This document shows, one piece after another, positions 34,957 to 46,862 of a stretch of DNA of 64,000 bases. Each line of letters opens with the position of its first letter. Positions within the stretch are counted from its first letter, which is position 1. Source of the DNA: Pedobacter sp. BS3 (GTDB lineage: Bacteria; Bacteroidota; Bacteroidia; Sphingobacteriales; Sphingobacteriaceae); the NCBI RefSeq assembly GCF_008274585.1, contig NZ_VTRT01000002.1:310001-374000 (forward strand), in the 5' to 3' direction. A model generated the notes under the pieces. The model saw only the letters and a program-made list of their open reading frames with translations. It had not been told where the DNA came from and ran no database searches. A program made the translations under genes and the position numbers.

Positions 34957-35967
34957 TCAGAACTGCCTTTGCGGACAGGTTACCCGGTAACGGTTATTGA
35001 GCAGTAAACCGAGTACAATTTCATGCGTTCCGTTGCTTACTGTATTTAGCTGAGACGTTGTAAAATCATACGAATAGCTAAGGTTGAACAGGTAGCTGAC
35101 ATTAAATCCGGCCATTGCCGAAAATGAATCCTTGTTCCGGTAGCCTCCTCCAAGCCAGAATTTATCCTGAAAAGCCAGCTTTAAATTCATATCTACCGAT
35201 GTTGGCGCCGGGGAAATGTATTTGAACATAACGGATGGCGTTGCCGTTATATTTTCACCTAAAAAGAACTTATACCCCGCCGTGGCAAAAACGTGCATAA
35301 CCTGTTTGCCTTCATCGTATTTATTATCGTTAGTAAAGCTGATCTGCCTGCCCAGTAATTGCTGTGCCGAAACTCCGGCAAAAAATGCAGGGCCATACAA
35401 CCATAAACCGGCGCTTAAATTGGGTTGCAGGTCATTGTCTTGCCCCGAAACAATGGCCGGATCCGACTTATTTTCCAGGCTTACCTTTGAAATATCCAGG
35501 CTCACTCGCGACACACCAGCAGCAATACCGGCTGCCAGATTAACACGACTACTAAGCCCGAGATGATACGCGTATGTAAGGTTAACATCTGTACGTTGCA
35601 AGGGCCCGGCTTTATCTACTACCGCATTTATACCAATACCGTGATGAGGTTCGGCAGCCATGTAGTCACGCACAAAGCTCCGGTTATTCGGGTTATCGCC
35701 TTTTTCAGGGAAACCGTTGGCATCGCCACCGGTAAAATTTTTGCCAATGGGCATATTTAACGATATGTAGCTGGTTTCGGGCGCACCCTCCAACCCCTGC
35801 CATTGCTTGCGGTAGCCCAGTTTCACATCGATATAATTTTCAATACCCGACAATGCGGGATTTAGTAAATAATTATTGAATATGTACTGGGTGTATTGCG
35901 GTAACTGCTGGGCATAGCTCTGCGTGATGCACACACTTAACATCCAGAACAAAAAAACCTTTTTCAC
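34957..35967 (-). CDS. PorP/SprF-family outer-membrane protein
   Basis: The 336-residue protein has a signal peptide (VFLFWMLSVCITQSYAQ) and the family opening QLPQYTQYIFNNYLLNPALSG, followed by beta-strand-rich sequence and a GGGYRNKDSFSAMAGFNVSY segment. PorP/SprF proteins belong to the type IX secretion system or to gliding-adhesin export modules in Bacteroidota. The start codon is GTG. No large adhesin partner gene is next to it here, so its client is unknown; it may serve a distant secretion cluster. Confidence 0.85.
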   Translation of the reverse strand: MKKVFLFWMLSVCITQSYAQQLPQYTQYIFNNYLLNPALSGIENYIDVKLGYRKQWQGLEGAPETSYISLNMPIGKNFTGGDANGFPEKGDNPNNRSFVRDYMAAEPHHGIGINAVVDKAGPLQRTDVNLTYAYHLGLSSRVNLAAGIAAGVSRVSLDISKVSLENKSDPAIVSGQDNDLQPNLSAGLWLYGPAFFAGVSAQQLLGRQISFTNDNKYDEGKQVMHVFATAGYKFFLGENITATPSVMFKYISPAPTSVDMNLKLAFQDKFWLGGGYRNKDSFSAMAGFNVSYLFNLSYSYDFTTSQLNTVSNGTHEIVLGLLLNNRYRVTCPQRQF

Positions 35968-36097: not shown

Positions 36098-36913
36098 TCA
36101 ATTACCTTCTACCTCAACCCAGGTAAATTTATCGGTCATGACGCCTCGCGGATGCTCACGACCAATACGGAAGGCCATCCAGTTTTTAGGAGCTATTACC
36201 TTGTTGTTTTTTTCGGAAAGATAAGCTGCCCACCAGGCAAACGAACTGTTTGAGATAATGGCGATATCGGCATTCTGAATGATCTGGAAATCGGTTATTT
36301 CATCGTTCACTGAAAAAATATAATTGGGTTTATTTTCAAACGAAGCCTTCACAAATTCAATATCATCGCTTACAAACAGCACTTTATAGCTATCCAGATT
36401 CTCAACCTCGGCCAGGCGTTTTTGAAAATAACCAATAGGTAATGAGATATCGCGTTTACCATACGTCATATAATCGGTACGCCTGATGTGTACCACAATG
36501 GTTTTGTTCTGGGCAAATAATTCTCCAAATTCCTGGTTAAAACGGTCGATATATTTCTGTTTAATTTTAATTGTATAATTCCCTGGCGTATGCTTTAAAT
36601 ACCAGTCGGTCTGAAAATATCCATTGTAAATGGTAAAATTTTCCGGCTTTATTTCGCGGGGAGCCACAAAATTCTGAATATATACCTCTTTAAACGGTAA
36701 AACTATGGGTAAATAACGGGTAAATACAGAATATAACTTAGAGCCAAGCACCAGATTACGGTATGTGCCCAAATCAAAATATTTGGTTAAATAAGCATGG
36801 TGCGGGTTTACAAAAAAGATGAATTTCCGGGGATTATTCCGCCTCAGATATATTAAAAAATACAGTTGAAATAACTGGTTACCCAGCCTTCCTTTAAACG
36901 TAACTCCTGTCAT
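36098..36913 (-). CDS. GT11-like fucosyltransferase
   Basis: The 271-residue protein matches the alpha-1,2-fucosyltransferase family GT11. It begins VTFKGRLGNQLFQLYFLIYL, and contains the donor-binding motif VVHIRRTDYM, the LFVSDDIEFVK segment and ISNSSFAWWAAYLS near the C-terminus. It would transfer fucose or a similar sugar to a surface glycan at the cytoplasmic face. Its start overlaps the end of the flippase gene by four bases (ATGA), so it is the last gene of the glycan operon running from 41780 downward. Confidence 0.88.
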   Translation of the reverse strand: MTGVTFKGRLGNQLFQLYFLIYLRRNNPRKFIFFVNPHHAYLTKYFDLGTYRNLVLGSKLYSVFTRYLPIVLPFKEVYIQNFVAPREIKPENFTIYNGYFQTDWYLKHTPGNYTIKIKQKYIDRFNQEFGELFAQNKTIVVHIRRTDYMTYGKRDISLPIGYFQKRLAEVENLDSYKVLFVSDDIEFVKASFENKPNYIFSVNDEITDFQIIQNADIAIISNSSFAWWAAYLSEKNNKVIAPKNWMAFRIGREHPRGVMTDKFTWVEVEGN

Positions 36914-38262
36914 GTGGTGTGTGATGTATTAGCTTTCCTGATGTACTTTCGATACATTTCAGGATAAAACATGTAAGCATAAATAAACGTATGGAGCACA
37001 TTCACTCCTAATGCTTTATGAAGAATGTATTGCCCGATGGCAAAGCCGATAATGTTGGAACATAAGGTAGCATACGCGGCACCGATTACGCCCATATTCC
37101 TGATAAAGAAATAGTTAAGTACAATATTAGTTGTAGCCGTAAATAATACAATAAAGAACGTTGTGCGGGTTCGGCCGATGGAATCAAGTATGGTTCCAAA
37201 CTGGCGTCCGTACGGAATAAGCAGGCAATACAGCAGGGTGATCCGCAAAAGCGGGATTGAATCGTTGTATTTAGCTCCCGCGATAAAATGTATCACCAGG
37301 TCGGTAAACGGATACAGGATGACCAGACCAGGGATCAGTATGGCTAATATAGCGCCCACCGATTTTTCGTACAGGTACTTTACAGCTTCCGTGCCTTCTG
37401 TTTCAATACGTTTGGCACTTTGCGGAAAAACAATGTTCGCCATAGCGCTGGTGGGTATATCGATGAGGTTGGTTATGCGTACCGCGATATTAAATGCCCC
37501 GGATGCCGCCGGCGATAGCAATGCGCCCAGCATCATTTGGTCTATGGTTCCAGATAAGATGGCGCTTACAGACGTACCAAACGCATATTTCCCATAGTTG
37601 AACAGCTTTTTTATCCAGTCGCGATGAATTTTTAGCGAAATAGCCAGGTAAGGCTTTGCATACACATAACCCACCAGTGTGCTTATCAGTACGCTGAATA
37701 TCTGTACATGTACCAGGTAGATCAGTTTGGTTTGCCAGCCCGCAATCCAGCATATCAATATGTAAGAAAAGAAAACGGCCTGCCGGATAGTAGCTGTAAC
37801 CACAATGCCCTTGAATTTAAAGTTGGCCTGTTCTATACAATTAAACTGCATTAATATACCCAACAGCAGAAAAACAATAGTATACAGGTAGAACATGGGA
37901 ACAAGCTCTGGCGATTTCCACAGGTTTGCCAAAAAGCCTGCAAAACAGAAAGTGGCTATGATGCACACCACCGTTAATACCGATGTAATGGTAGCCGATG
38001 CCGACAAAATTTTGCTTCGGTCTTCTTTTCCAGCTGCCGAGTAGAATTTAACCAAAGCATTCTGTATCAATCCGTTACGGGTAATCTCCATAATGGTTAT
38101 GGTCGACATGAATAGTGTCCATGCACCATAATCGTGTTTATTGAGGAGTCTTACCAGGATATAAAAACTGCCAAAACCAAACAGCACGCCAGACATATTC
38201 TGCAGCACATTCAGTATGCCTGATTTCAGCCAGTAATGGTCTTTTTGTTTTTGTTCTTCCAT
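36910..38262 (-). CDS. Oligosaccharide flippase (Wzx-like)
   Basis: The 450-residue integral membrane protein has about 12 to 14 hydrophobic helices and the MATE/MOP-type polysaccharide flippase pattern (GFGSFYILVRLLNKHDYGAW near the N-terminus). It would translocate lipid-linked oligosaccharide units to the outer leaflet of the inner membrane. It lies within a run of glycosyltransferase genes, which supports the assignment. It overlaps the GT11-like gene by four bases. Confidence 0.88.
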   Translation of the reverse strand: MEEQKQKDHYWLKSGILNVLQNMSGVLFGFGSFYILVRLLNKHDYGAWTLFMSTITIMEITRNGLIQNALVKFYSAAGKEDRSKILSASATITSVLTVVCIIATFCFAGFLANLWKSPELVPMFYLYTIVFLLLGILMQFNCIEQANFKFKGIVVTATIRQAVFFSYILICWIAGWQTKLIYLVHVQIFSVLISTLVGYVYAKPYLAISLKIHRDWIKKLFNYGKYAFGTSVSAILSGTIDQMMLGALLSPAASGAFNIAVRITNLIDIPTSAMANIVFPQSAKRIETEGTEAVKYLYEKSVGAILAILIPGLVILYPFTDLVIHFIAGAKYNDSIPLLRITLLYCLLIPYGRQFGTILDSIGRTRTTFFIVLFTATTNIVLNYFFIRNMGVIGAAYATLCSNIIGFAIGQYILHKALGVNVLHTFIYAYMFYPEMYRKYIRKANTSHTT

Positions 38263-38335
38263 GCAGGTTTAATTCAAAAGGCAAAAGTTGAGCGCAGCGA
38301 AATTCCGACTGTTCGGGATGAAAACTCAAAAGGGC

Positions 38336-39319
38336 TCATTGTAAATTCTCTCCTTTTACATAATACGTTTCAATGTACTGCTTCACTTCATCATCGGTTT
38401 TGGCATGCAATATCTTTGCTCCCGATAGCTTCGGAAACAACTTCTGGAAACAACCGAAATGATGCTCCGGACCTTTCTTTGATAATATCAGGTTAATGCC
38501 TTTAAAGTAGCTTGCCAATGCTGCCGTGCCGCCATGTATGGATATGAAATGATCGGCATTGGCATAAACCATTAATTGCAGATGATTGAAATTACGGGCA
38601 TTACTTTTATTTTCTTTATACAGATCTTCCATCAATATCACCTCCGGATGCGTTTTTTCAAGCCAGTCAAATTCGTCCAGATCATAAATATCGCTGGTGT
38701 CCATCGTAATATTTTGCGGACGCGGACGATTATAAATAATCGTGAATTTGTTTTTCAGCCTGCTGATCATAAAATCCAGCAATTCAATACTGTAAAAACT
38801 TACAGGTGGCCCGTTCCATTCCATATTGTACCGGTTGGCAATAATCAGGATAGGCTTGTCGAAACGGTAAATATCATTCCGGTAAGTTTCTTTGAGCGGA
38901 ACCATTGCCCACTTTTTCATATTGTAATTGTGACTGTACAATATGCGTGGCATCTCGTAATTATAGTTGCCCTCGTTGGTGCGTACATCGTATACTTCTT
39001 CATGATCCGGCGAAAAGAAATACATTTCTTTGGTGTATTTGGCTCCCCGGGTGCTTTTCAGCGTGCCGTTTTTATAATGCCAGTAGGCAAAAGGCAGCAC
39101 AAATTCCAGTTCGGGAGCAAATTCGCCGTCGAACGAAATTTCTTTATACTTCTTGCGGAATACATAATCTCTTAAAATGTATTTAAGCTGCACAAACTGG
39201 CAGTAATAGGTGTCGCGGTAATAATATCGCACCCCCCAGTGTAATTTGCCAAACCGCAGCCGTACATACAGGCTGATCAGTTTGGTGATGATGTTATCGG
39301 GTATTTTTCCTGCTTCCAA
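38336..39319 (-). CDS. Putative glycosyltransferase-like protein of the glycan cluster
   Basis: The 327-residue soluble protein has no signal peptide. It has a C-terminal segment HFISIHGGTAALASYF typical of nucleotide-sugar-type binding folds in polysaccharide-synthesis proteins, preceded by FDKPILIIANRYN, which looks like the start of a second Rossmann domain. The family is not recognised with confidence. The start is TTG at 39319, since no ATG lies near the N-terminus, and it follows the GT2 gene by five bases. It may be a GT-B-type transferase acting in the same pathway. Confidence 0.6.
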   Translation of the reverse strand: MEAGKIPDNIITKLISLYVRLRFGKLHWGVRYYYRDTYYCQFVQLKYILRDYVFRKKYKEISFDGEFAPELEFVLPFAYWHYKNGTLKSTRGAKYTKEMYFFSPDHEEVYDVRTNEGNYNYEMPRILYSHNYNMKKWAMVPLKETYRNDIYRFDKPILIIANRYNMEWNGPPVSFYSIELLDFMISRLKNKFTIIYNRPRPQNITMDTSDIYDLDEFDWLEKTHPEVILMEDLYKENKSNARNFNHLQLMVYANADHFISIHGGTAALASYFKGINLILSKKGPEHHFGCFQKLFPKLSGAKILHAKTDDEVKQYIETYYVKGENLQ

Positions 39320-39324
39320 AACTA

Positions 39325-40212
39325 TTATTTTCCGTTAACATACTCCGACAAACGCCGGGTATGCAATTTAAACCTGTTTATAAATGATTTCACCAAACCG
39401 CCTTCGGCTTTTAACCTCCGTGAAGATGTAAATACGCGGGCTTTGTAATTGGTTACTAATTTCAGCCGGCCTTTCTTTTTCAGGTTGATGGCCATGCGCC
39501 CGTCTTCGGCCTCATCCACAAAATAATCGCTGCCCAGGGCATTATCAAATTTCCGCACATCGGTTACCTCAAAACCGCCGGTGGTACGTCCCACCTCGGT
39601 TACAAAACCCATATTAAAACCTAATACGTTGATGTATTCGCGATTTATTTTTCTTAAGCGGATAAGCAGGCCGGTGACCTTTTCGTAAAAGAAATATAAA
39701 AAACGTCCTTCGCCGGGCTGCGGCAAAAAGAAATACCGCCCGTAAACGCCTGTTATCGATGGATCTTTTTCCATCGGTTTAACCATTAATTCGATCCATT
39801 TGGGTGGATAAAATGTATCTGAATCGGCACACAAGTGATATTTTCCCCGTGCTTTAAATAAGCCCATCTGCCGGGCATGCGGCGTTCCCTGTATGGGTTG
39901 CAGGTAATTTCGTACGCCCAATTCATCCAACACCTGCTGTGTGCCATCGGTTGAGTTATTGTTTATCACCACAATTTCAACACGATAGCGGCACGTATTG
40001 GCAGCCAGCGAAGACAGCGTACGAAAAATGTTATCCTGCTCGTTCCAGGCCGGAATTACTACCGAAACTTCGGGCTGCTCATCGCGAAAGCGGCTTAACC
40101 GCTCTTTCAAATCGCTGAGCTCTGCAACGGTAAGGTCGGCAAACTTTTTGCCGGGAAACAAATGCGGTTGCAACCATTCTGGCAGGTGAGCTGATGTATC
40201 GTGTTGAGCCAT
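39325..40212 (-). CDS. Glycosyltransferase family 2
   Basis: The 295-residue protein has a GT-A core. It begins with VSVVIPAWNEQDNIFRTLSS, then the nucleotide-binding NNNSTDGTQQVLDE and the metal-coordinating CADSDTFYPPKW (DSD in place of DXD). It would transfer a sugar from a nucleotide donor. The C-terminal part is basic and may touch the membrane. The start lies one base after the stop of the preceding GT2 gene, showing tight operon packing. Confidence 0.88.
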   Translation of the reverse strand: MAQHDTSAHLPEWLQPHLFPGKKFADLTVAELSDLKERLSRFRDEQPEVSVVIPAWNEQDNIFRTLSSLAANTCRYRVEIVVINNNSTDGTQQVLDELGVRNYLQPIQGTPHARQMGLFKARGKYHLCADSDTFYPPKWIELMVKPMEKDPSITGVYGRYFFLPQPGEGRFLYFFYEKVTGLLIRLRKINREYINVLGFNMGFVTEVGRTTGGFEVTDVRKFDNALGSDYFVDEAEDGRMAINLKKKGRLKLVTNYKARVFTSSRRLKAEGGLVKSFINRFKLHTRRLSEYVNGK

Positions 40213-40213
40213 A

Positions 40214-40984
40214 TCAGGTTAATAAATCCCAGTTAAATTTCAGATAGCGATACCCATGCCTGACTAAAGTAACGAACGGGTTGTTAGAATTACGCCAGTA
40301 ATTACGTTTTACCATGCTTGGCTCTGCCTGCGAGTTCACCTGGTCAAATAAACCGGTATAATCATCGTAATACAGGGCTTTACCCTTGTGCTTCAAAAAC
40401 GACATCATCATACGATATTCCGTGACATCAGGCTTGGTGTTTTCCGCATACCGCCCGAACTTCTCAAAAAAGCTGCTTCGTCGTAAATGCGGATGGTCGC
40501 TGTAATAATAGAACTTTTTGTATCCTTTATTCCATATATTGAATATCATTTCTGAAAAACCATTTTTATAGGGTTTTAAATAGGGATATTTAAAATAAGC
40601 GTAAAACCGGACAACGTCTATATCGGGACGCTCGTTCATAAACGCTACTGCATCGGCAAGCTTTTCTTTGAACAGCGGCCTGGGCACAAAATCTTCCTGT
40701 ACATATAACGTCAGCGGGGTTTTTACCAGGTCTTGCCCTTTATTGATATTGTTACCCAGCCCCTTATTAACCGGTGTTTCTGATAGTTGAAAGTCGTATT
40801 CAGCCTGCAGGCGTTTCAGTTCATCGATATGAAATACCTTACTCCCATCGTCCGAAACTACAATATCATCGAACCGGTAACCGTTATCGCGAAAGGTTTT
40901 CAACAACCGCTCCAACGAGCTGCTCCGGTTATAATGCGTAATTAACAGGGTTACGCCGGTATATTGATGTGGAGCGTTATTCAT
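40214..40984 (-). CDS. GT2-like glycosyltransferase, tandem paralogue 2
   Basis: The 256-residue protein starts VTLLITHYNRSSSLERLL and contains NKGLGNNINKGQ and TLYVQEDFVP, which replaces the canonical DXD with QED. The middle (RFYAYFKYPYLK, then SDHPHLRRSSFF) is nearly the same as in the upstream gene. The two overlap by eight bases and arose by tandem duplication. The acceptor is unknown. Confidence 0.82.
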   Translation of the reverse strand: MNNAPHQYTGVTLLITHYNRSSSLERLLKTFRDNGYRFDDIVVSDDGSKVFHIDELKRLQAEYDFQLSETPVNKGLGNNINKGQDLVKTPLTLYVQEDFVPRPLFKEKLADAVAFMNERPDIDVVRFYAYFKYPYLKPYKNGFSEMIFNIWNKGYKKFYYYSDHPHLRRSSFFEKFGRYAENTKPDVTEYRMMMSFLKHKGKALYYDDYTGLFDQVNSQAEPSMVKRNYWRNSNNPFVTLVRHGYRYLKFNWDLLT

Positions 40985-41780
40985 TGGTGATTTTCGGATA
41001 AAACAGGTAATCCCAGCTAAATTTCAGGAATTTGTATTGCAGGTATACTTTGCGGAGTATGCGTACAAAGATGTTTTTACGTTGTGTCCACGATGACCGA
41101 AAATCGGCCGTGCTGGGCTCGCTGGATGTATTTTTTTGGTCGAACAGCGTTGTGAAAAGATGATAGAATATTCCCTTACCGCCATTTTTCAGAAACGAAA
41201 GACACATATTATATTCGGTTTTATCGCCGTTCACCCCTTCCAAATAGCGGCCAAACTTTTGAAAAAAGGTGCTTCTTCGCAGGTGCGGATGATCGCTGTA
41301 GCTGTAAAATTTCATATATCCCGGGTACCAGAATTTGAACTTCATCCTGTCAAATCCTTTGGCAAAAGATTCCAGGTAGGGATATTTAAAATAGGCATAG
41401 AAGCGGGCAATGTCCAGCTCGGGATTTTCGTCCATCAGTTGAAGCGCATCGGTAAAATGTTCGGGGAAAGCATCTTTAGGGATAAAATCTTCCTGTACAT
41501 ATAAGGTATAGGGTGTTTTAACAGCGTCCTGACCTTTATTGATGTTATTGCCCAAACCTTTATTATGATGGGTAATAAGCAGGTTAAACCCGTATTCGTC
41601 CTGAAGCTCCTGGATACGCTTAAAATGGTCGGCCTTGCTGGCATCATCAGACACAATAATTTCAGCAAATGTACAATTGAGCCTGTTGAAAGCATTAAGC
41701 AGGCGTTCAAGCGACGCACTGCGATTGTAATGCGTAATTAATAAGGTTACATCGTTGAAGGTGTATAAACCATTACCCAT
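40977..41780 (-). CDS. GT2-like glycosyltransferase, tandem paralogue 1
   Basis: From ATG 41780 the protein has 267 residues. It shares VTLLITHYNRSASLERLL, NKGLGNNINKGQD, TLYVQEDFIP and SDHPHLRRSTFFQKFGRYL with the downstream paralogue, while the C-terminal third has diverged (SSWTQRKNIFVRILRKVYLQ). It is the first gene of the six-gene glycan operon. A TTG four codons earlier is possible but the ATG is preferred. A heptamer repeat and a 113-bp inverted-repeat element lie upstream. Confidence 0.82.
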   Translation of the reverse strand: MGNGLYTFNDVTLLITHYNRSASLERLLNAFNRLNCTFAEIIVSDDASKADHFKRIQELQDEYGFNLLITHHNKGLGNNINKGQDAVKTPYTLYVQEDFIPKDAFPEHFTDALQLMDENPELDIARFYAYFKYPYLESFAKGFDRMKFKFWYPGYMKFYSYSDHPHLRRSTFFQKFGRYLEGVNGDKTEYNMCLSFLKNGGKGIFYHLFTTLFDQKNTSSEPSTADFRSSWTQRKNIFVRILRKVYLQYKFLKFSWDYLFYPKITNE

Positions 41781-41792
41781 ACCGAGGCCCAA

Positions 41793-41888: not shown

Positions 41889-42001
41889 GGTGCATTTCAA
41901 ATTATCGCATTCCGTTACTTTTTGTGGGCGGTGTCTCCACCGCCCACGGCGGATTGTCCCGGCTGGTGTCTTCACCAGCCGGCGATAATTTGAAATGCAC
42001 C
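41889..42001. mobile_element. Miniature inverted-repeat element with 20-bp perfect ends
   Basis: GGTGCATTTCAAATTATCGC at 41889-41908 is exactly mirrored at 41982-42001. Inside are two hairpins, GGGCGGTGTCTCCACCGCCC and GGCTGGTGTCTTCACCAGCC. No transposase is encoded, so it is non-autonomous. No clear target duplication was found. A 65-codon open frame across it is not considered a gene. Confidence 0.78.
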
Positions 42002-42047
42002 ATTTTCTCTCACACTGACCGGTATTAGTTTGAATCAGCATATTGTT

Positions 42048-42593
42048 CTAAATCCGTATAACGGCCTTAAATATATTTGTACAGCTATTTTCATCATACT
42101 GGTAAGTAAACTCAAACGTGTGTTTGGCAATAATGAGCAGGCCATAATGTTCCAGTAAATCCTGCGGGTCATAGCTTTCGGGCTCATCGTGCTCAATGTA
42201 TTTAAAAACCAGCTCGTTCATGCTAACCGGAGCTGCCAGCAATGTGGATAACATATCTTTACGGATAATTACCGGCTCTGCTGTATATGGCAGTGTAAGC
42301 GGAAAACTTAAAACCATGTTACTGCAAATCAAACTAAATGGTAATCCGCTATCTGCTTTGCTGATCTTTATAAAGAGATGATCGGTTTCGATCATAAAAA
42401 TGCTTTGCCGGCAATTGCTGTGCTTAATAGCATTGGTACATAGCTCAATAATTACCTGCTTAACCGCACTGCTGTTAGGTTCGTATTTTTCGGGGTGTAC
42501 ATTTTCCCTGATAATATCAATTACAGTGTTAACAAAGGAGTAAATGTTATCTGTAGAGTGCTCAAACAGCACTTCTTTTTTTATATAATCCAT
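42048..42593 (-). CDS. Anti-sigma-type HATPase protein (RsbW-like)
   Basis: The 181-residue protein resembles the ATPase/kinase fold of anti-sigma-factor regulators. The N-box is visible as IIELCTNAIKHS (about 48-59). The following G1 motif reads DSGLPF instead of the usual DxGxG, and the G2 region HYGLLIIAKHT is also modified, so ATP binding may be weakened. It would normally phosphorylate a STAS protein and sequester a target. It is the last gene of the partner-switching operon, eight bases after the STAS gene. Confidence 0.75.
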   Translation of the reverse strand: MDYIKKEVLFEHSTDNIYSFVNTVIDIIRENVHPEKYEPNSSAVKQVIIELCTNAIKHSNCRQSIFMIETDHLFIKISKADSGLPFSLICSNMVLSFPLTLPYTAEPVIIRKDMLSTLLAAPVSMNELVFKYIEHDEPESYDPQDLLEHYGLLIIAKHTFEFTYQYDENSCTNIFKAVIRI

Positions 42594-42601
42594 TCGGCAA
42601 A

Positions 42602-42934
42602 TTATGCGGGTTGTTGCGGTGGCAGGGTTTGATGTATTTTAAATACTTTATCCATCCTGATCAATGAAAAAAGGTTTAAGATATCTTTATTCAGATACGC
42701 AACGGCAATATCCGCGTGTTTGGATATGGCATATTTAAGCGATGACACCAACGCACCTAAAAATGAACTGTCTACATAATCTACATTTTTAAAGCTGATG
42801 ATGTAGGGTTTGCTTTCACGGTCAATCAGCTTAACCATCTCCTGCTTAAAGGTATCGGCATAAGCCAGGTTAGCTTCTTTAACAAGCAGCTCTACCAGGA
42901 TATAATCTTCATGAGGTTGTACTTGAAATATCAT
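42602..42934 (-). CDS. STAS-domain anti-sigma-factor antagonist (RsbV/SpoIIAA-like)
   Basis: The 110-residue protein has the STAS fold, with a conserved phospho-acceptor region VDYVDSSFLGALVSSLKYA, in which Ser57 (second Ser of DSSFLG) is the likely phosphorylation site. It would bind the HATPase partner when unphosphorylated. Its start overlaps the 3' end of the response-regulator/phosphatase gene by 26 bases, which implies translational coupling. Its phosphatase is most likely that upstream gene's product. Confidence 0.88.
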   Translation of the reverse strand: MIFQVQPHEDYILVELLVKEANLAYADTFKQEMVKLIDRESKPYIISFKNVDYVDSSFLGALVSSLKYAISKHADIAVAYLNKDILNLFSLIRMDKVFKIHQTLPPQQPA

Positions 42935-44075
42935 CTGATTTTTCTTTTTCTATTATAATTATACTGCAATCGTCTATTTGTTCCCTGTTGTTTTGTTTTG
43001 AAAATAATGCGCCCTTGATATACTGCAATGCGTTTTTATTGCTGATAAACGATTTTATCCGGTTAACAAACAAATCGTAGTCGGTTTTCTTGCCTTCATC
43101 ATCCTTGTAGTCAATCATTCCGTCTGAAATAACCAGCAATTTATCGCCCGCGTTCAAAACAATTTCCTGTTCGGTATAATCACCGTTAGCCAATAAGCCC
43201 AGTAATAAACCGGTGGAAGCAATACTGCTTACCCCCCGCTGGTATTTATAATGAATAAGCGGTAAGTCGCCGGCACCGGAATAATATAATCTGCCGGTTT
43301 GATGCTCGATCATAATCAAGGTCAGGGTAGACATCACATCCTGCAAAACAGGATCGCCGTAAACCACATCGTTAATTTTTTTCAGGATAACGGCTGTTGA
43401 GATATTACCATCGTACACACACAGGCGTACGGCCGAGCGTATATAACTTAAAAAGTTAAACGAAAAGCACCAGGCTCCCCACTGCTTACCCATCACATCG
43501 CCCAGCACCACATACGTATATTTATCGCTGATGGAGATAAAATCGATAAAATCGCCACCGGGATAGTTCTGAAATGTTTTATGCCAGAAAGAAATATCAA
43601 ATCCCCTAATTCGGGGTGCGCTTTGCGGCGTTGACCGTAAATTCAGCGTTTCGGCGGTTTTACGTAATTCTGCCAGCGATTTTTCGTGTTGCTCTCTAAC
43701 CGTAGACAGCAGATTATTGAGTTTGGATATGATTACCGGCAGCGCCGTGTCTTTAGCAATGTAATCAACCGCCTGCAGATCAAGCCCCTGCAATATCATA
43801 TCATTCTGGGTAAACGCTGTTAAAAATACAAAGGGGATGTTTTTAAGCCGGTCGTTTGCCAGCAATTTTTTCCTGAACGCAAATCCGTCGTCGCCGGGCA
43901 TACTGTAATCCGACAGGATGATGTCGGGATTGATATCGTTGAGCAATTCCATTGCTTCTGCCGCAGACGTTGCCCTGTGACAGATAAATCCATCACGCTC
44001 AAGCGTTTTGGCAATGAGCTCCAGTATAAACGGCTCATCGTCTACCAGCAGAATTGTTTTCGTTCCGGTTGCCAT
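42909..44075 (-). CDS. Response regulator with PP2C-type (SpoIIE/RsbU-like) phosphatase
   Basis: The 388-residue protein has an N-terminal receiver domain (ILLVDDEPF with D12/D13, phospho-acceptor D56 in ILSDYSMP, T86, K108) and a C-terminal SpoIIE-type serine phosphatase with metal-binding motifs GGDFIDF, VVLGDVMGKQ and VISDGMIDY. Phosphorylation by an unseen histidine kinase should activate dephosphorylation of the STAS protein. It overlaps the membrane-protein gene upstream by one base and the STAS gene downstream by 26. No histidine kinase gene is adjacent. Confidence 0.92.
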   Translation of the reverse strand: MATGTKTILLVDDEPFILELIAKTLERDGFICHRATSAAEAMELLNDINPDIILSDYSMPGDDGFAFRKKLLANDRLKNIPFVFLTAFTQNDMILQGLDLQAVDYIAKDTALPVIISKLNNLLSTVREQHEKSLAELRKTAETLNLRSTPQSAPRIRGFDISFWHKTFQNYPGGDFIDFISISDKYTYVVLGDVMGKQWGAWCFSFNFLSYIRSAVRLCVYDGNISTAVILKKINDVVYGDPVLQDVMSTLTLIMIEHQTGRLYYSGAGDLPLIHYKYQRGVSSIASTGLLLGLLANGDYTEQEIVLNAGDKLLVISDGMIDYKDDEGKKTDYDLFVNRIKSFISNKNALQYIKGALFSKQNNREQIDDCSIIIIEKEKSDDISSTTS

Positions 44076-44617
44076 CAGGAAGCCCGCAGGGCACGAATTT
44101 TAATTAAAGCGTTAATTGTTAAATATACGCCGCAAAATACAATAATTAAAGAAATTAAATCCATTAAAGTAAAACCATCGTCGGTAGTGAAATAAATAAT
44201 GGTGAACATTTCAAAGTAAGGCGGCGCCGGTAAAAATATCATCGATAGTCCCAGGGTGATCATGGCCAGTCCCATACATAATTGAAAAATATACTTCATG
44301 CGGGACAAATGCAGGTATTTACGCGATAGCTTACTGTCTAAGGGATGCTGCGACAGTAATAATTCCAGATTATCCAGCATTTCCTCACGTGATGTTGCCT
44401 CCTTATCCATCTCCCGGTAGGCCTGTATGTTTTTTGAGGAAGAAAGCATATCGGCAATCGCTTTATCAAACTGCTGCCTGATGTGTTCCTTGTCCTGATG
44501 GTTCAGGCTGCTGGATTGCAGCAGTACAATCAGCTCATTCAGCTTATGGGTAACATGCGCCTTCTGCTCCGTTGTGCTTAATCCAAAAAGCGTAGTTGTC
44601 TGTTTCGTTTCTTCCAT
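44075..44617 (-). CDS. Two-helix membrane protein of the partner-switching operon
   Basis: The 180-residue protein has a long helical N-terminal half with coiled-coil character (about 15-110) and two membrane helices (about 113-133 and 148-170). There is no recognised domain. Gene order suggests it could tether or sense for the module: it is first in the operon, and its stop overlaps the response-regulator start. It is divergent from the GT2 gene at 44671, with 53 bases between starts. Confidence 0.7.
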   Translation of the reverse strand: MEETKQTTTLFGLSTTEQKAHVTHKLNELIVLLQSSSLNHQDKEHIRQQFDKAIADMLSSSKNIQAYREMDKEATSREEMLDNLELLLSQHPLDSKLSRKYLHLSRMKYIFQLCMGLAMITLGLSMIFLPAPPYFEMFTIIYFTTDDGFTLMDLISLIIVFCGVYLTINALIKIRALRAS

Positions 44618-44670
44618 CAGGATTTTTTCTTTCTATTTCTTTTTAGAAATAATTATAACTTAATGCCGGA

Positions 44671-45588
44671 ATGAAAAAAATTTCTGTCATTACCGTTAAT
44701 TATAACCAGCCGCAAGTTACCGAAGAGTTGCTTTCGTCCATTTTTTCTGTAAACACCTATCCTGCTATCGAAATTATTGTAGCAGATAACGGCAGTGATC
44801 CCGATATTACTCCTGCATGGCGCAATCAATATCCTTCGGTGCATTTTATACGGCTAAACACCAATCTGGGTTTTGCCGGCGGAAACAATGCTGCTATCCA
44901 ACACGCTACAGGCGATTATATTTTCATGGTCAATAACGATACCGAGTTTACTCCCGGTCTTATTGAAACACTTATCGCCCCCCTCGAAAACAACTCAAAA
45001 ATTGCTGTAATATCGCCAAAAATACGGTATTATCAACAACCAAATACCATTCAATATATAGGCTTTACGCCGATGAACTATTATACCATCGCTAACAACG
45101 CTCCCGGACAGTTTGAGATCGATACCGGGCAATACGATAACATTTGTGCACCAACAGGTTATGCTCACGGCGCAGCCATGATGATACGTGCCAGCGCAAT
45201 GCATGAAGTTGGCCTTATGGCTGAAAACTTTTTCCTGTACTATGAAGAAATGGACTGGTGCGACCGGTTTAAACGTGCCGGATATGAAATTTGGGTAAAC
45301 ACCAATGCCCTGATCTATCATAAGGAATCGGTTTCGGTAGGAGCCCGTAGTGCATTGAAAGAATATTTTATGAACCGTAACCGGATATTATTCGCCCGGC
45401 GAAACGCTCCGTTGTTTAAGCAATTGTTTTTCTTTTTTTACTTTCTGCTGCTGGTAACTCCCCGGAATATTATCCGTTATTGCAAAGAAAAAAATTACAA
45501 CTTTATCGGCGTATTGTTCCGGGCTATCTGGTGGAATGTATCACACAGTAAAAATAGTATGGAGCTGGGTTATAAAGTGAAAAGCTGA
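44671..45588 (+). CDS. Glycosyltransferase family 2, rhamnosyltransferase-like
   Basis: The 305-residue protein has a GT-A fold. It begins ISVITVNYNQPQVTEELLSS, has NTNLGFAGGNNAAIQHATGD and the metal site MVNNDTEF (NDT for DXD), and the later motif YYEEMDWCDRFKRAGYEIW. This pattern is usual for WbbL/RfbF-like rhamnosyltransferases. A hydrophobic segment near the C-terminus (FFFFYFLLLVTP) suggests membrane association. It shares a short divergent promoter region with the partner-switching operon and is followed at 99 bases by a second GT2 gene. Confidence 0.88.
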   Translation: MKKISVITVNYNQPQVTEELLSSIFSVNTYPAIEIIVADNGSDPDITPAWRNQYPSVHFIRLNTNLGFAGGNNAAIQHATGDYIFMVNNDTEFTPGLIETLIAPLENNSKIAVISPKIRYYQQPNTIQYIGFTPMNYYTIANNAPGQFEIDTGQYDNICAPTGYAHGAAMMIRASAMHEVGLMAENFFLYYEEMDWCDRFKRAGYEIWVNTNALIYHKESVSVGARSALKEYFMNRNRILFARRNAPLFKQLFFFFYFLLLVTPRNIIRYCKEKNYNFIGVLFRAIWWNVSHSKNSMELGYKVKS

Positions 45589-45686
45589 GAGTGAAAAGTG
45601 AAAAGTAGAAAACTAAAAGGGAACCCAAAATATGTTACAGGCTACGAGGCTCACAACACATAACCCATAACAATGATACACACACA

Positions 45687-46862
45687 ATGAAAATTATCTT
45701 CTGGTTAAGCATCATCATCATTGTTTATACCTTTATAGGATACGGTTTTGTGCTGTACCTGTTCATGAAGATCAGGCAGTTATTCAAAGGAAAACGTCCT
45801 GTTCCTCATGCCGATCACAACCTGCTGCCAGGCTGTACGCTGGTTGTGGCTGCCTATAATGAGCAGGATTTTATCACCGAAAAAATTGCCAATACCCTGG
45901 CGCTGAACTACCCAAAAGACAAACTGCAACTGCTTTTTATTACCGATGGATCTACCGATAAAACCCCTGAAATTATTGCACAATACCCGCAAATAACCCT
46001 GATGCATAGTCCCGAACGTAAAGGTAAAATTGCCGCGGTGCACCGGGCTGTTGAACAGGTAACTACCGAGGTCGTTGTGTTTACCGATGCCAATACGTTT
46101 CTGAATACCGATGCTCTTATTCATATTTGCCGGCATTACCAGGATAAGCAGGTAGGCGCTGTTGCAGGCGAGAAGCGCATATTTTCGGGCGAAGAAGCCG
46201 ACGCCAGCTCGGCAGGCGAAGGCTTTTACTGGAAATATGAATCGAAGCTGAAGCAATGGGATTCTGAATTATACTCGGTAGTTGGCGCTGCCGGTGAGTT
46301 ATTCAGCGTACGAACTGAATTATATCAACCAGTATCGGCCGCAGCTATTATTGACGATTTTATGATCTCGATGCTCATCGCCCAAAAAGGTTATCGCATT
46401 GTGTATGAACCCGACGCTTACGCCATTGAAACAGCATCGGAAAATATACCGGAAGAACTGAAACGTAAGATCCGCATTGCCGCCGGCGGCATGCAATCCA
46501 TTATCTGGCTTAAAAGCCTGCTTAATATTTTCAAATACGGAATGTTAAGTTTTCAGTACATCAGCCATCGCGTTTTACGCTGGACCATTACACCTTTCCT
46601 GCTCATCCTGGCTTTTCTGCTCAACCTGTTCATTGTATTAAGTTTTCCCGAACCGGTTTACAATATACTATTTGCGGGCCAGGTATTATTTTACCTGCTG
46701 GCTGTTTTAGGCTATTTATTAGAAAGCAGGCATTTACGTATAAAAATCCTGTTTATACCCTATTATTTCTGCATGATGAATTACGCTGTGCTGGCCGGTA
46801 TATTCCGCTATTTCAACAAGCAGCAAAGCGCCGCCTGGGAAAAATCAAAGCGGAAAATGTAG
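45687..46862 (+). CDS. Membrane-bound processive-type GT2 glycosyltransferase
   Basis: The 391-residue protein has an N-terminal membrane helix, a GT2 catalytic core (LVVAAYNEQDFITEKIAN, ITDGSTDKTPE, VFTDANTF) and three or four C-terminal helices. The acidic EGFYWKYESKLK and IIDDFMISMLIA motifs match hyaluronan/cellulose/poly-GlcNAc-synthase-like enzymes, although the canonical QXXRW reads differently (AAGGMQSIIW). It probably adds sugars to a lipid or growing chain at the inner membrane. It ends 21 bases from the convergent MacB-like gene. Confidence 0.85.
   Translation: MKIIFWLSIIIIVYTFIGYGFVLYLFMKIRQLFKGKRPVPHADHNLLPGCTLVVAAYNEQDFITEKIANTLALNYPKDKLQLLFITDGSTDKTPEIIAQYPQITLMHSPERKGKIAAVHRAVEQVTTEVVVFTDANTFLNTDALIHICRHYQDKQVGAVAGEKRIFSGEEADASSAGEGFYWKYESKLKQWDSELYSVVGAAGELFSVRTELYQPVSAAAIIDDFMISMLIAQKGYRIVYEPDAYAIETASENIPEELKRKIRIAAGGMQSIIWLKSLLNIFKYGMLSFQYISHRVLRWTITPFLLILAFLLNLFIVLSFPEPVYNILFAGQVLFYLLAVLGYLLESRHLRIKILFIPYYFCMMNYAVLAGIFRYFNKQQSAAWEKSKRKM

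Follow-up and report, generated by a model that had tools for sequence, protein, structure and literature searches.

A predicted partner-switching operon linked to a divergent glycosyltransferase pair in Bacteroidota

In a 64,000-nucleotide stretch of DNA from Pedobacter sp. BS3 (contig NZ_VTRT01000002.1, positions 310,001 to 374,000; "the window" below is this whole stretch), we find the parts of a partner switch beside two glycosyltransferase genes, GT3 and GT4. Judged by sequence, a receiver-phosphatase fusion (REC-PP2C), a STAS protein with an intact phosphosite, an ATPase with the RsbW/SpoIIAB fold (HATP) and a membrane protein (MEM) form one conserved operon that is divergent from GT3-GT4. 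The carriers of this switch are soil and freshwater Bacteroidota, where it is almost always divergent from one and the same pair of sugar-transferase genes. The overall best explanation is a partner-switching module dedicated to the GT3-GT4 pair, a reading to which we assign a probability of about 0.5.

Conserved linkage of the operon with GT3-GT4

A preliminary description of the window had proposed a tight four-gene operon, and this holds: MEM, REC-PP2C, STAS and HATP are consecutive minus-strand genes, exactly as placed there, with ends that touch or overlap (median gaps across loci of 0, 1 and 1.5 bp), and their order recurs in dozens of genomes, which is not chance. The features are as follows, in window coordinates.

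44075..44617, minus strand: MEM, membrane protein of 180 aa with two hydrophobic helices; no Pfam match reaches the cut-off
42909..44075, minus strand: REC-PP2C, receiver fused to a SpoIIE/RsbU-type serine phosphatase, 388 aa (Pfam)
42602..42934, minus strand: STAS, STAS-only protein of the SpoIIAA/RsbV type, 110 aa; Pfam STAS, D-S-S/T phosphosite motif
42048..42593, minus strand: HATP, GHKL-type ATPase and putative serine kinase, 181 aa; predicted RsbW/SpoIIAB/SiaB fold
44618..44670, no strand: divergent intergenic space, 53 bp, from the MEM start codon to the GT3 start codon
44671..45588, plus strand: GT3, family 2 glycosyltransferase, 305 aa, divergent from the MEM operon; Pfam Glycos_transf_2, E=5e-28
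45687..46862, plus strand: GT4, PgaC-like membrane family 2 glycosyltransferase, 391 aa, cotranscribed with GT3; TIGR03937, E=4e-28 (below cut-off)
36098..41792, minus strand: downstream glycan genes, comprising three of glycosyltransferase family 2 (GT2), one for a protein without Pfam match, a Wzx-type flippase and one of family 11 (GT11)

We followed the linkage of these genes with several seeds; whether a gene counts as present or absent depends on the profile threshold and, if the assembly is fragmented, also on where contigs end. A search of 151 genomes of the family seeded with HATP gave 37 hits whose neighbourhoods were examined, and all 37 contained the same six genes, with GT3 and GT4 divergent from MEM-PP2C-STAS-HATP. 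Seeding with GT4 among named genomes (80 best-matching loci) added loci in Dyadobacter, Filimonas, Pedobacter, Arcticibacter, Desertivirga and many Mucilaginibacter; the nearest named relatives of GT4 from the window's host, whose genome is 4.8 Mb, are Sphingobacteriaceae. Once duplicates had been removed, 67 complete loci remained, from Sphingobacteriaceae, Dyadobacter and Filimonas, and order and orientation (GT4-GT3 / MEM-PP2C-STAS-HATP) were identical in every one. Synteny, which had been put forward as a check on the operon, thereby ties it to GT3-GT4 in 67/67 complete non-redundant loci. The space between MEM and GT3 has a median of 67 bp (87 loci, redundant loci counted).

Because these locus sets had been chosen by HATP and GT4, and the linkage could have been an effect of that selection, MEM and REC-PP2C were used as extra seeds. 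MEM was found in 47 of the 151 genomes, and GT4 was present in 47/47 genomes with MEM versus 30/104 without it (Fisher p=7e-19, ancestry uncorrected). The two genes lie within 2.7 kb of each other in 46 of the 47; in the last they are split by a contig end, and MEM adjoins GT3. REC-PP2C was found in 39/151 genomes, beside MEM in all 39. Presence is therefore nested, with the phosphatase (39) within MEM (47) within GT4 (77/151). Among the eight genomes with MEM and no phosphatase, one (G147) is a fragmented assembly with an HATP-like hit on another contig. On a tree of GT4, 14 changes account for the full set, against 45 for shuffled labels; well supported branches force at least 9 of the 14. 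On this phylogeny the full set is inherited in blocks, yet it has been gained or lost several times, and it is at the same location whenever present. One genome (G150) has GT3-GT4 twice, as nearly identical pairs of which only one is accompanied by the switch operon (L102 7030-9160 and L054).

Where two divergent gene sets share a short intergenic space, such as the 53 bp here, their promoters can keep them together, and the adjacency might then reflect a shared promoter region and common descent with no functional tie. We consider this quite improbable. By gene order, the linkage persists despite turnover of the flanking genes across Sphingobacteriales, Chitinophagaceae and Spirosomataceae, and it outlives a rearrangement in Mucilaginibacter UR6-11 that places the genes on the same strand. 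Furthermore, MEM never occurs without GT4 (47 genomes), and homologues of the parts cluster again, in a different order, in distant genomes. A promoter scan of the region found sites no more often than in shuffles, with a model that does not describe Bacteroidota promoters.

On this comparison the conserved unit is larger than, and different from, the span first reported: GT3-GT4 (44671-46862) belong to it and the downstream glycan genes do not. The latter recur in some lineages and are absent from several relatives that carry the module, and the gene after HATP is often glycan-related (acyltransferase 15, Branch 11, family 8 glycosyltransferase (GT8) 6, flippase 6; n=61). In the window, glycan genes flank the operon on both sides and no sigma gene is adjacent. 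The earlier picture of an operon embedded in a glycan cluster fits the window itself, but the downstream side varies between lineages. The suggested link to glycan synthesis gains support from synteny with two specific divergent glycosyltransferase genes.

Component proteins and their predicted roles

In Pfam, REC-PP2C matches Response_reg (E=7e-23) and SpoIIE/PP2C (E=2e-24). Across 27 orthologues the receiver residues D12, D13, D56, T86 and K108 are invariant, as are D175, D178, D193, D318, D368 and D369 of the phosphatase, so that the metal-binding aspartates are intact. A plasmid collection searched with the phosphatase returned just distant generic SpoIIE matches, below 60% identity. The STAS protein (Pfam E=7e-9) has the phosphosite motif D55-S56-S57, in which D55 and S56 are each found in 76/76 sequences and the third position is Ser in 72 and Thr in 4. 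Its closest solved structures are TM1442, TM1081, SpoIIAA and RsbV, and it aligns with TM1442 and other anti-sigma antagonists.

The identification of the fourth gene product as an HATPase is weak for the window protein on its own (HATPase_c E=0.017, below cut-off) and is borne out by its relatives and its predicted fold: 24/28 orthologues match HATPase_c_2 (best 5e-7), and the AlphaFold model (predicted local distance difference test, pLDDT, 93) matches SpoIIAB, RsbW, UsfX and SiaB, with VIA-align Z from 15.0 to 11.8. The N-box is retained (E50, N54, K57 and H58 in 74/74), the G1 box is reduced (D81 in 69/74, G83 in 68/74, second G of DxGxG absent), and one invariant residue, G151 (74/74), remains of the G2 region. 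In the model, a long insert of extra beta strands (residues 87-134, between G1 and G2) lies where the ATP lid usually sits. Judged by these residues, most HATP proteins probably bind ATP; a few look degenerate. Membership of the SiaB/DUF6272 family was considered and rejected because the match was single and weak (DUF6272 in 1/28 members, E=0.018; NF038262 E=0.027, 14 bits against a cut-off of 85) and HATPase_c_2 is better supported. Together, the phosphatase, STAS and HATP very likely make up a working trio.

MEM consists of a helical N-terminal domain followed by two transmembrane helices, which are joined by a highly conserved hairpin (PAPPYFEMFT...DDGFTLMD); its structure model is moderately confident (pLDDT 79, predicted template modelling score 0.46). 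Matches of MEM to Phosducin and poxvirus I5 were weak and inconsistent and were set aside as Pfam noise. No match to PgaD was found in NCBIfam (window protein, E up to 0.1) or among the Pfam matches listed. GT4 scores 98 bits against the PgaC model TIGR03937, for which the cut-off is 422.

Predicted output of the switch

A kinase and a phosphatase act as a pair to switch STAS proteins, and partner switches classically act on sigma factors. The preliminary description had noted a partner-switching set with no sigma gene adjacent, and we agree: open reading frames and Pfam reveal none in the operon, and no sigma family is among the families listed for 124 immediate neighbours (listings of 25 of 27 and 25 of 32 families). 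A search of the genome for sigma70 region 3 returned a single protein, of 292 codons. A SigB-type target is very unlikely because this lone region-3 protein is RpoD-like in size and no sigma family is listed among the neighbours. A sigma-factor target was therefore rejected on the region-3 search of the genome and the 124 neighbours, which gave none; the search did not extend to extracytoplasmic function (ECF) sigma factors encoded elsewhere. In other genomes, a sigma gene linked to the switch, which would have spoken for the classical arrangement, was looked for and not found; some distant STAS-phosphatase relatives adjoin a sigma-54 activator, not a sigma factor. Given the near-constant adjacency of GT3-GT4 and no sigma gene seen next to the switch, it probably controls surface-sugar synthesis directly.

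Alternatively, an unlinked regulator (for instance an ECF sigma or an anti-sigma) could carry the signal of the switch to transcription, with the glycan genes as one target among others or as mere neighbours. Such a role would follow the classical targets of partner switches, and it would suit two observations: in other classes, relatives of STAS-PP2C have a histidine kinase and a sigma-54 activator as neighbours, and in UR6-11 the trio is unlinked from glycan genes. Yet the genome offers no SigB/SigF-type candidate, no sigma family appears among those listed for the neighbours, and the linked partner is always GT3-GT4, so that we regard this alternative as unlikely. An output on GT3-GT4 is the likely one. 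Control at the post-translational level seems rather more plausible to us than transcriptional control.

We infer a mechanism of four steps, in which our confidence falls from the first to the last. First, a histidine kinase would phosphorylate the receiver and so set the activity of the phosphatase; the hybrid histidine kinase domains that adjoin GT4 in 6-7 loci are candidate inputs to the receiver. Second, HATP would phosphorylate STAS at the D-S-S motif, and REC-PP2C would take the phosphate off. Third, the output would be the activity of the GT3-GT4 machinery and not a sigma factor. Fourth, unphosphorylated STAS would dock on the cytosolic helical part of MEM, and MEM, in a PgaD-like role, would permit or stabilise the synthase, such that surface glycan is made or exported by GT4 only when the switch is set. 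It is thus that we tentatively picture MEM, as a dedicated two-helix membrane subunit of a GT3-GT4 complex whose binding by STAS would gate the membrane glycosyltransferase directly.

Which protein docks is addressed by loci that have lost part of the module. MEM without PP2C, STAS and HATP still stands beside GT3-GT4 in Daejeonella and relatives, in Mucilaginibacter phyllosphaerae and in Sediminibacterium (INTERMEDIATES), and in one small Mucilaginibacter clade the full, MEM-only and GT-only states neighbour each other on the GT4 tree. In Mucilaginibacter UR6-11, GT3, GT4, a hexapeptide transferase, MEM and STAS follow one another on one strand (L190 5084-8754); this STAS has an intact phosphosite, and no HATP remnant lies behind it. 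A PP2C-STAS-HATP trio is found elsewhere in that genome, next to dnaA (L267 7336-9400). The two STAS genes of UR6-11, one linked to MEM and the GTs and the other to PP2C and HATP, constitute a natural test of which STAS carries the output. In two genomes where the trio is missing beside MEM (L116 8419-14274, L117), the next gene encodes a protein of 1460-1690 aa; the one checked is a surface adhesin that has cadherin/CshA repeats and carries a type IX secretion signal.

The preliminary description had looked to the HATPase protein as the binder. In that case free HATP would bind and inhibit MEM, GT3 or GT4, and unphosphorylated STAS would draw it off, as in RsbV/RsbW. The direction would be the same as in classical RsbW/SpoIIAB systems, whose fold HATP shares, and HATP occurs in 67/67 complete loci. 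However, UR6-11 has MEM-STAS beside the GTs with no HATP, distant clusters combine STAS-PP2C with MEM or GT homologues and no HATP nearby, and HATP changes fastest of the module members. HATP is thus a doubtful effector. The binder named earlier is probably wrong, since MEM, and once MEM with STAS, is left with the GTs when phosphatase and HATP are no longer alongside, which puts STAS and MEM on the output side. As gene-content evidence, the loss intermediates favour STAS over HATP as the docking protein, with the proviso that synteny alone does not decide, and we lean towards STAS/MEM as the docking pair.

The distant clusters contain the same parts in other arrangements. In a Bacteroidota genome of another class, a Wzx/Wzy cluster (L247 7695-12538, L248) has PP2C, a GT4 homologue and STAS one after the other and also contains GT3 and MEM homologues; on gene order, this is an independent arrangement of the same parts. 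In another family, homologues of GT3, MEM, STAS and PP2C lie within one polysaccharide cluster. More distant STAS-PP2C pairs have a histidine kinase and a sigma-54 activator alongside and no GT4, which makes the pair older than its link with these GTs. Several families outside the window's class have STAS-REC(-REC)-PP2C beside a sigma-54 activator response regulator (L249 4662-9740, L250-L258, L261); the one checked also has a PAS histidine kinase.

Several observations weigh against a dedicated module that acts in the way proposed. About 30 genomes of the family carry GT4 without MEM or the switch, and therefore the enzymes do not need the switch everywhere. HATP is the least conserved part of the module (29% mean identity, compared with 41% for MEM, 43% for STAS, 50% for PP2C, 58% for GT3 and 65% for GT4), and a few of its members have lost the DxG motif. 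MEM sequence distances follow those of PP2C (r=0.85) more than those of GT4 (0.67). When GT3 and GT4 residues were contrasted between genomes with and without the module, none clearly marked it (highest total-variation distance 0.60, confounded by ancestry), and therefore the enzymes show no visible docking site. UR6-11 is one genome in which the trio lies away from the GTs, the sole clear exception to trio linkage, and HATP was looked for beside both distant polysaccharide-cluster versions and not detected. Finally, synteny cannot tell post-translational from transcriptional control.

Related systems and surrounding sequence

The module is best read as a switch of the SypE/SypA or SiaABC kind, in which STAS would act post-translationally on GT3-GT4, probably through MEM. 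As in SypE/SypA of Vibrio fischeri, a STAS-only protein with a serine phosphosite is combined with a serine kinase (a putative one here) and a receiver-linked PP2C in a polysaccharide locus, and the output is not a known sigma factor. However, SypE has kinase, receiver and phosphatase in one chain, whereas REC-PP2C (388 aa) and HATP (181 aa) are separate here, and the present module adds a membrane protein, is tied to two GT genes and belongs to Bacteroidota. In the syp system, SypA is a downstream element that acts below transcription on a target that is not known (PMC10120452; PMC11112999).

In SiaABCD of Pseudomonas aeruginosa, unphosphorylated SiaC, a STAS-like protein, binds the helical stalk of SiaD and activates it (PMC8457831). 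That system also has a separate PP2C, a GHKL-type kinase and a STAS-like protein, and SiaB (6kko, Z 11.8) is among the structural matches of the HATP model. Its differences are that SiaC is a DUF1987 protein with a threonine site and not a Pfam STAS, and that its target is a diguanylate cyclase, whereas no GGDEF gene is present in the operon or its annotated surroundings here. A STAS protein also controls a diguanylate cyclase in HsbR/HsbA (P. aeruginosa) and BgrV/BgrR (Sinorhizobium meliloti) (PMC8457831), modules that lack a glycosyltransferase or membrane-protein partner; HsbR-HsbA also regulates RpoS (PMC6482189). HmpUVW of Nostoc punctiforme, compared by description, likewise has phosphatase, STAS and kinase in a motility-and-polysaccharide locus, but is cyanobacterial; its dephosphorylated STAS is active, on a target that is not known (PMC8256260).

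For GT4 and MEM the analogy is PgaC and PgaD: PgaC relies on PgaD, a small inner-membrane protein that mediates the post-translational action of cyclic di-GMP (c-di-GMP) (PMC8461298). GT4 resembles PgaC (E=4e-28, below the family cut-off). MEM shows no relation to PgaD that we could detect, and its helical domain lies N-terminal to the membrane helices, so that the likeness would be one of role only. RsbU-RsbV-RsbW and SpoIIE-SpoIIAA-SpoIIAB of Bacillus share all three component folds and the phosphosite motif with the present module, but no SigB/SigF-type sigma gene is at the locus here and the genome has a single region-3 sigma protein. In our search of openly licensed papers on partner switching in Bacteroidota, this unit was not described.

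Years of work on STAS switches in polysaccharide loci (SypA, HmpV) have yielded no known target. Here, comparative genomics names candidate targets, namely one uncharacterised membrane protein and two glycosyltransferases, and supplies a natural series of loss intermediates; genera that can be cultured and are not pathogens (Mucilaginibacter, Pedobacter, Dyadobacter) carry the unit. If the proposed mechanism is true, a glycan synthase would be under partner switching instead of c-di-GMP or a sigma factor, which would offer a model for the target of SypA-like proteins and would show use of RsbU/V/W-type parts by Bacteroidota without a SigB-type system.

Two other features of the window were noted. 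A 116-bp palindromic element (41895-42010) separates the HATP gene from the glycan operon that follows, and several full-length or partial copies at 72-89% identity elsewhere in the genome give it the look of an interspersed repeat, like a repetitive extragenic palindrome (REP) or a miniature inverted-repeat transposable element (MITE). At the far end of the downstream glycan genes, 34957-35967 encodes a membrane protein of the PorP/SprF family (type IX secretion).

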